DNA from: Balneolaceae bacterium
Lineage (GTDB): Bacteria > Bacteroidota > Rhodothermia > Balneolales > Balneolaceae
NCBI GenBank assembly: GCA_007693395.1
Contig: REDS01000115.1
Span: 1-44,071, forward strand
Direction of reading: 5' to 3'
DNA: 44,071 bases
Part shown: piece after piece, positions 42,893-44,071 of the stretch
Layout of the letters: the number at the start of each line of letters is the position of its first letter
Position numbering within the stretch: position 1 is the first letter of the stretch
Program-made: the position numbers and the translations under genes
The notes under the pieces: generated by a model
What the model saw: only the letters and a program-made list of their open reading frames with translations
Told to the model about the DNA's origin: nothing
Databases searched by the model: none

Positions 42893-43852
42893 TCAGAAAT
42901 CAAGCGGGCTTTTTACACCGTGACCGCCCCTATTTAGAACATGAAGATAAATTGATGTGGTTTTCAGGCTTTTGTGTCCCAGAAGATCTTGCACAGTTCT
43001 TATATCATAACCTTTCTGAAGCAGATGGGTTGCAAATGAATGGCGAAATGTATGCAGTGTTACATGCTTGTTGATGCCGAGTGACTGAACAACGTTGTTT
43101 ACTTCCCTGCGTATTTCTGAAGAGTCGATATGATACCGGAAAAAGAGACCGGTTTTCGGGTCTTTACGGCGCTTCTTTGAAGGAAACAGATATTGCCAGT
43201 GAAATTGCTTATTTGCATTAGGATACTTTATGTGAAGAGCTTTAGGGAGTATAGCATGGCCAAACCCTTTTTCGAGATCAGCTTGATGCAGATGTTTAAC
43301 TTTTAAGATGTGGTTTTTCAGATCAGGCAAAAGAGATTCCGGAAGCATGGTTATTCTGTCTGTGTTGCCCTTTGCACGCCGAATGGTAAGTTGTTTGTAT
43401 GAAAAGTCGATATCAGCAATTCTTATTCTCAAAGCTTCTGATGTTCTCAGACCGGAGCCATAAAAAAGACTTACAATCAGCCGGGTTTTACCTTGTAATT
43501 TACTCAGGATAAGTTTCACCTCTTTATCGTTGAGTACAACCGGGAGCCTTTTTGGTTTCTTAGCCCTTTTTAAAGTCTTAAGTTCGTTAATTGGTTTTTT
43601 GATGATATGTTCATATAAAAAAACCAAGGCGCATAAAGCCTGATTTTGTGTTGATGCTGCAACATTTCTGTTTTCTGCAAGATAATTCAGAAACATTACA
43701 ACATGTTTACCATCCAGTTTTTCCGGGTGGGTAAGGTTATGAAAACGAATATACCGAACAATCCAGCTGCAGTACGATTTTTCGGTATTATAGCTGTAGT
43801 TTCTTCTCCTTATTTCAGATCGAACGCTATCCAGTAATTTACTTTTAGCCAT
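42893..43852 (-). CDS. intI: Integron integrase (IntI-type tyrosine recombinase)
   Basis: IntI catalyses capture and excision of gene cassettes at attI and attC sites. The protein has 319 residues from the ATG at 43852. Catalytic residues are Arg136 (SGLRTSEA), Lys161, His267 and Arg270 (LHTFRHSF), His293 (LLGH) and Tyr302 (SIYLHV). The diagnostic extra segment of integron integrases is present at about 203-222 (LPKALHIKYPNA followed by WQYLF), as are DPKTG near 231-235 and the C-terminal VLNRGGHGVKSPLD. An upstream TTG at 43900 could add 16 residues, but homology starts at KLLDSVRSEI and a promoter box sits just upstream of it. Orientation places attI and any cassettes to the right, beyond 43.9 kb. 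Confidence 0.95.
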   Translation of the reverse strand: MAKSKLLDSVRSEIRRRNYSYNTEKSYCSWIVRYIRFHNLTHPEKLDGKHVVMFLNYLAENRNVAASTQNQALCALVFLYEHIIKKPINELKTLKRAKKPKRLPVVLNDKEVKLILSKLQGKTRLIVSLFYGSGLRTSEALRIRIADIDFSYKQLTIRRAKGNTDRITMLPESLLPDLKNHILKVKHLHQADLEKGFGHAILPKALHIKYPNANKQFHWQYLFPSKKRRKDPKTGLFFRYHIDSSEIRREVNNVVQSLGINKHVTLHTFRHSFATHLLQKGYDIRTVQDLLGHKSLKTTSIYLHVLNRGGHGVKSPLDF

Positions 43853-43911
43853 GGTTCTTGTTTGTTCTGATTTCTTTACTGTATGAACCGAAAATGGCAA
43901 AAACCTTACAC

Positions 43912-43920
43912 CAAATAATA
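43912..43920 (-). promoter_or_regulatory. intI: Candidate intI promoter -7 region
   Basis: On the minus strand TATTATTTG is TA-N3-TTTG, one base longer than the usual TAnnTTTG. It lies about 60 bases before the intI ATG. The three TTATTCGG repeats begin four bases upstream and cover the place of the -33 element. Confidence 0.35.
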
Positions 43921-43923
43921 TTT

Positions 43924-43957
43924 TTATTCGGAGTTATTATTCGGAAAATTTATTCGG
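43924..43957. repeat. Three TTATTCGG direct repeats in 13-bp phase (attI region)
   Basis: The 8-mer TTATTCGG occurs at 43924, 43937 and 43950, each exactly 13 bases after the last, with different five-base spacers. It lies between the intI start and the presumed attI/cassette boundary, overlapping the likely intI promoter. Known attI sites have direct repeats that bind integrase; this array could play that part or act as an operator. Confidence 0.7.
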
Positions 43958-44031
43958 TAAAAATGAGATGTATGAAGAAAAGAACCTACTATGTAGTTGC
44001 CATTATTAGAGATTGGAGTTATACTAAATAA

Positions 44032-44065
44032 ATAATTATACCTTAAATTTTGCGGGTATAATTAT
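44032..44065. other. 11-bp inverted repeat at window end (attI or first attC candidate)
   Basis: ATAATTATACC (44032-44042) and GGTATAATTAT (44055-44065) are perfect arms around 12 bases. The last four bases of the window, GTTA, would begin a core site of the GTTRRRY type used by IntI, but the sequence stops before it can be read. The arms also contain TATAAT on both strands, so a promoter role is possible. Confidence 0.45.
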
Positions 44066-44071
44066 ATGTTA

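Follow-up and report, generated by a model that had tools for sequence, protein, structure and literature searches.

The integron integrase locus at the contig end

The window (the whole stretch of 44,071 nucleotides that was analysed) reaches the end of contig C188 of the draft genome G000, and the contig stops exactly at the GTTA of a putative attI crossover. Its terminal features are an integron integrase gene, intI, transcribed away from the contig end, the candidate intI promoter (PintI), an array of short repeats, a candidate cassette promoter (Pc) and an inverted pair of boxes beside the crossover (Table 1). The encoded protein scored 417.7 bits against TIGR02249 (cut-off 265), placing it among the integron-type integrases, and aligned over its full length to the structure of the V. 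cholerae integron integrase (2a3v, E 2.8e-81). An alternative in-frame TTG start at 43900, which would precede the region where transcription is predicted to begin, is less likely than the ATG. An intI gene was found in 50 of 92 genomes of the family, and the complete promoter motif TGTAAGG-N17-TCATAC was present without mismatch in 34 of 60 intI upstream regions.

Table 1. Features of the intI-attI region in window coordinates.
Feature	Position	Strand	Evidence or remark
intI, integron integrase, 319 aa from ATG (43852)	42893-43852	-	Matches to TIGR02249 and 2a3v
PintI -10-like TCATAC	43881-43886	-	Half of the TGTAAGG-N17-TCATAC motif
PintI -35-like TGTAAGG	43904-43910	-	CCTTACA in 53/60 intI upstream regions
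Box 0, inverted one-mismatch TTATTCGG copy: CCAAATAA, minus-strand TTATTTGG	43911-43918	-	Abuts PintI -35
Repeat 1, TTATTCGG	43924-43931	+	Direct sequence scan
Repeat 2, TTATTCGG	43937-43944	+	Sequence scan; lag 13 kept family-wide
Repeat 3, TTATTCGG	43950-43957	+	Direct sequence scan
Pc candidate TTGCCA-N17-TATACT	43997-44025	+	Same position best-scoring in most genus-level attI regions
Inverted box pair ATAATTATACC / GGTATAATTAT	44032-44065	.	Right arm is the crossover-proximal integrase site (L-box position)
attI crossover GTTA	44068-44071	+	Same GTTA, then cassette-like sequence, in the C78 copy and relatives

In most genus-level relatives the best-scoring promoter occupies the position of the Pc candidate, its -35 element at -69 to -71 and its -10 element at -46 to -48 relative to the crossover, with a spacer of 17, and the last 60 bases of the attI region are 82% identical in the closest relative, G062. 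The first cassette downstream of attI in G062 (L011) seemingly encodes a nucleotidyltransferase/HEPN-type pair, as judged by eye. A DNA match in G080 was set aside since the gene in which it falls, which looks like a helicase by eye, is unrelated.

The last 192 bases of the window recur at 98% identity on another contig of the same assembly, C78 (L005 4974-5165), as a second attI that retains the array, Pc and the crossover and runs on past GTTA with GTTAAGGCCCGGCA, which resembles the start of a cassette and is likewise present in relatives. Inspection of the sequence showed that only remnants of the two ends of its intI are left. The two attI sites are 98% identical while the intI coding remnants have diverged, which suggests gene conversion or recombination between the sites. 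Because C78 carries the only priA of the genome, it probably comes from the same organism, making contamination a less likely origin of the second attI. A further, decayed intI lies on contig C208 (L092 305-619) as a 105-aa N-terminal fragment that has kept the promoter motif; neither an attI nor an array was found upstream of it.

A 13-bp phased repeat array upstream of PintI

A sequence scan bore out the original prediction of three identical TTATTCGG copies in exact 13-bp phase, and the accompanying claim that they are too regular for chance held as well. When the gap was simulated 40,000 times each with a first-order and a second-order Markov model, an identical, equally spaced 8-mer triple turned up in 13 and 48 of the sequences, respectively, which puts the chance at about 3e-4 to 1e-3 under models that were both trained on the gap sequence including the repeats themselves. 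Among 399 window segments of 220 bases each, an 8-mer triple at one spacing was unique to this gap, and across the whole 3.56-Mb genome the pattern TTATTCGG-N5-TTATTCGG occurred only here and in the second attI.

The relation of the array to the promoter differs from what had been proposed. The -35 element is 13 bases away from the repeats, which hence do not cover position -33 of the intI promoter as predicted; only box 0, which continues the 13-bp phase of the three direct repeats, abuts it. The "TATTATTTG box" (43912-43920, minus strand) that had been taken for a promoter element is probably this inverted fourth copy instead, and its distance from repeat 1 is 3 bases rather than 4. A -33/-7 promoter of the Bacteroidota type at TATTATTTG was rejected, as the sequence departs from TAnnTTTG and the conservation is accounted for by TGTAAGG-N17-TCATAC. 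By eye, inverted boxes resembling box 0 are present in G062, in JAIUMA and, weakly, in G064.

Joint drift of the array and the crossover box in Balneolaceae

Conservation of the array was examined in 60 intI upstream regions gathered from Balneolaceae, which yielded 29 attI regions after dereplication. In these 29 regions direct repetition at lag 13 reached z = 11.6, compared with a null maximum of 3.36, and harmonics appeared at lags 25 and 26 (z = 4.1 and 4.9). The letters of the repeats vary from relative to relative (TTATTTAACC, TTTATCCGATC, TTATCAGGAA and TTATGCGACA among others), so that of the conservation anticipated in relatives that keep intI, the 13-bp architecture is there and the sequence itself is not. 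Nearly all relatives have the array immediately upstream of PintI, and the distance from the PintI -35 element to the crossover is nearly constant despite the changing letters, at 133-180 bp and mostly 145-166 bp.

The changes in the array are matched at the crossover. When read as its reverse complement, the crossover-proximal box fits the array of its own genome better than the arrays of other genomes, with none of 20,000 permutations reaching the observed value before dereplication and 4 of 20,000 after it. Two control segments around the Pc -35 element showed no preference for their own array (P about 0.15-0.7 by permutation), whereas segments closer to the crossover likewise matched their own array, which would fit the presence of further boxes. 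The integrase must recognise the crossover box, and because this box drifts jointly with the array, we most simply read the array as bound by IntI too. This reading leans on the family rather than on the window, because the likeness between the window's own crossover box and the TTATTCGG repeats is only moderate, with a self score of 7 when the arrays of some other genomes score 12. At the family level, the array consists of direct repeats that resemble the core boxes and are situated on the intI side of the crossover, as in accessory integrase sites.

A promoter motif common to intI and DNA-uptake genes

The PintI motif is not confined to integrase genes. G000 contains 15 exact copies of TGTAAGG-N17-TCATAC and none of the reversed control, and in a phylum-wide sample the motif was found in all 15 Balneolaceae genomes, compared with at most two copies per genome (the background level) in other families. 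Exact copies in G000 head recA, radC, comEC, comM/YifB, intI, the decayed intI and an ECF-sigma/anti-sigma-like pair, and copies with one mismatch head ssb, recQ, comF and comEA. The enrichment of exact sites is estimated at about 1e-7, a post hoc value given that the competence gene set was picked after the motif matches were seen. The arrangement is repeated in other genera: in four relatives the motif heads recA, radC, recN, ssb, comEC, comM, recQ and a recF-like gene (this one and recN judged by eye), such that one promoter is common to DNA-uptake and recombination genes, as in a competence regulon. Upstream of dprA, a search of four genomes with spacings of 16-18 and up to two mismatches returned no motif, apart from two weak, chance-like matches at the G003 locus.

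A candidate for the factor that reads these promoters is encoded within the same gene set. In G000 the sigma/anti-sigma-like pair directly follows radC, with the motif between the two genes, and the pairing of an ECF-like sigma gene with a motif-bearing anti-sigma-like gene is kept in three genera. The sigma match is weak, falling below the Pfam and NCBIfam cut-offs, and the best PDB match is an ECF sigma factor (E 3e-4). The candidate ECF sigma encoded between radC and the anti-sigma-like gene, on contig C47 of G000, is probably the one that reads PintI-type promoters.

The usual alternative is control by LexA. A search of the 2.7-kb intI locus for an E. coli-type LexA box (CTGT-N8-ACAG, at most one mismatch) gave no match, for a consensus that may not be that of Balneolaceae. 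LexA is present in 84 of 89 genomes of the family, on which ground its loss was rejected as the cause of the missing box, and some SOS input to intI is possible. From the company that its promoter keeps, intI probably belongs to a competence/recombination regulon rather than to the LexA regulon. The original prediction that something replaces LexA is thus probably right, with the difference that the replacement would be the ECF-like competence promoter itself and not a repressor bound to the repeats.

Proposed function of the array and its alternatives

We favor the interpretation, at a probability of roughly two in three, that the array represents accessory IntI sites within a long attI and that PintI belongs to a DNA-uptake/recombination regulon, probably read by an ECF sigma factor. 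The attI would be unusually long, about 165 bp from the intI promoter to the crossover, and would be occupied by IntI on the three direct sites, probably also on the inverted box 0 next to the promoter, and on the inverted pair at the crossover. The array may help the recombination complex to dock or to take up its orientation. IntI bound to the array or at box 0 may also dampen its own transcription, as the array borders on PintI. PintI itself would be one promoter of the family-specific regulon, probably served by the sigma factor encoded near radC, so that the integrase would be produced during DNA uptake or recombination rather than through a LexA box. The broader proposal, that throughout the family intI sits in a sigma-driven competence regulon instead of SOS, with the phased array abutting PintI coupling uptake, integrase supply and capture with feedback, is one to which we give slightly better than even odds.

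Of the origins suggested for the repeats at the outset (an accessory integrase-binding array of attI, autoregulation by IntI, or a regulator replacing LexA), the accessory array is thus the best supported, by the 13-bp architecture, by the co-drift and by the lack of any genomic copy outside attI sites. If the array were instead an operator through which IntI represses PintI, acting from box 0 at the -35 element and with little role in recombination, one could account for the abutment of box 0 in the common phase and for the array's position next to PintI, on its upstream side, in almost every relative. However, box 0 was seen in the closest relatives only, the three direct repeats are upstream of the -35 element and off the core promoter, and the second attI keeps the array without a working intI, although that copy is recent; we consider this explanation unlikely.

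Nor do we think it any likelier that the array binds a host regulator other than IntI, activating or repressing PintI, Pc or both. An arrangement of direct repeats upstream of a divergent promoter pair is typical of regulator sites, and the repeats, which span roughly -75 to -108 relative to the presumed Pc start, are well placed for control of Pc. Nevertheless, the occurrence of the array pattern at only two attI copies in the genome disfavors a genome-wide regulator, and joint drift of the motif with the crossover box is unexpected for a regulator with other targets. Neutral duplication or slippage in an AT-rich gap, to which the shortness of the repeats and the AT-rich sequence would lend themselves, is strongly disfavored by the simulations and by a 13-bp phase that has persisted family-wide through the change of letters, and we regard it as very improbable.

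Comparison with known integrons and competence regulons

The closest parallel to the accessory sites proposed here is attI1 of class 1 integrons, which has two accessory direct repeats, DR1 and DR2, within a 65-bp site (PMC12901181); like the proposed ones, these supplement the L and R boxes as sites for the integrase and are found on the side of the crossover that faces intI (PMC12901181, PMC8191803). The Balneolaceae array differs from the two repeats of attI1 in having three direct copies and one inverted copy in 13-bp phase, located 110-143 bp from the crossover, much farther than known attI accessory repeats, and in being family-wide, with species-specific letters, in apparently chromosomal integrons. 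Most attI sites are stated to lack DR-type repeats, among them attIA of Vibrio cholerae (PMC8191803, PMC8946536), which otherwise resembles the present site in belonging to a chromosomal integron in which PintI and Pc diverge around attI. The array bears on the proposal that accessory repeats were selected or acquired when integrons became mobile (PMC8191803), and the repeats and crossover boxes, which drift together and fast, provide natural material on the co-evolution of integrases and their sites.

With regard to expression, LexA and CRP boxes are present in the V. cholerae intI promoter, on which competence has an indirect effect by way of SOS, unlike the direct membership suggested here. 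SOS control resembles the arrangement proposed for Balneolaceae in tying integrase expression to DNA entry and recombination, and differs from it in that the present locus has no E. coli-type LexA box and shares its promoter with uptake and recombination genes. Competence regulons in which a single promoter type serves genes such as comEA, comEC, comF, comM, radC, recA and ssb include those of ComX/SigX in streptococci and CRP-S/Sxy in Haemophilus; here the promoter sequence is another one, specific to Balneolaceae and probably read by an ECF sigma factor, and intI is included. A survey of LexA control left an alternative intI regulator as an open possibility (PMC3108266). In the open-access literature we found no paper on Balneolaceae integrons and, by title or listing, none that assigns intI to a competence regulon. 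SOS control is the regulation described for integron integrases, and the family-wide promoter common to intI and uptake genes makes the question of a non-SOS trigger testable; it suggests that gene capture is switched on with DNA uptake and not by the usual DNA-damage alarm.

Other genes behind the motif

In several genera the motif repeatedly heads genes for 23S_rRNA_IVP-type four-helix proteins and GxxExxY (PDDEXK_3) proteins (L086, L091, L093, L112, L113, L118, L130, L132, L136 and L161), which may be linked to competence. In G027, genes resembling REP-associated transposases (Y1-type, by eye; L120 and L168) and a GIY-YIG endonuclease-like gene (by eye; L164) lie directly behind it.
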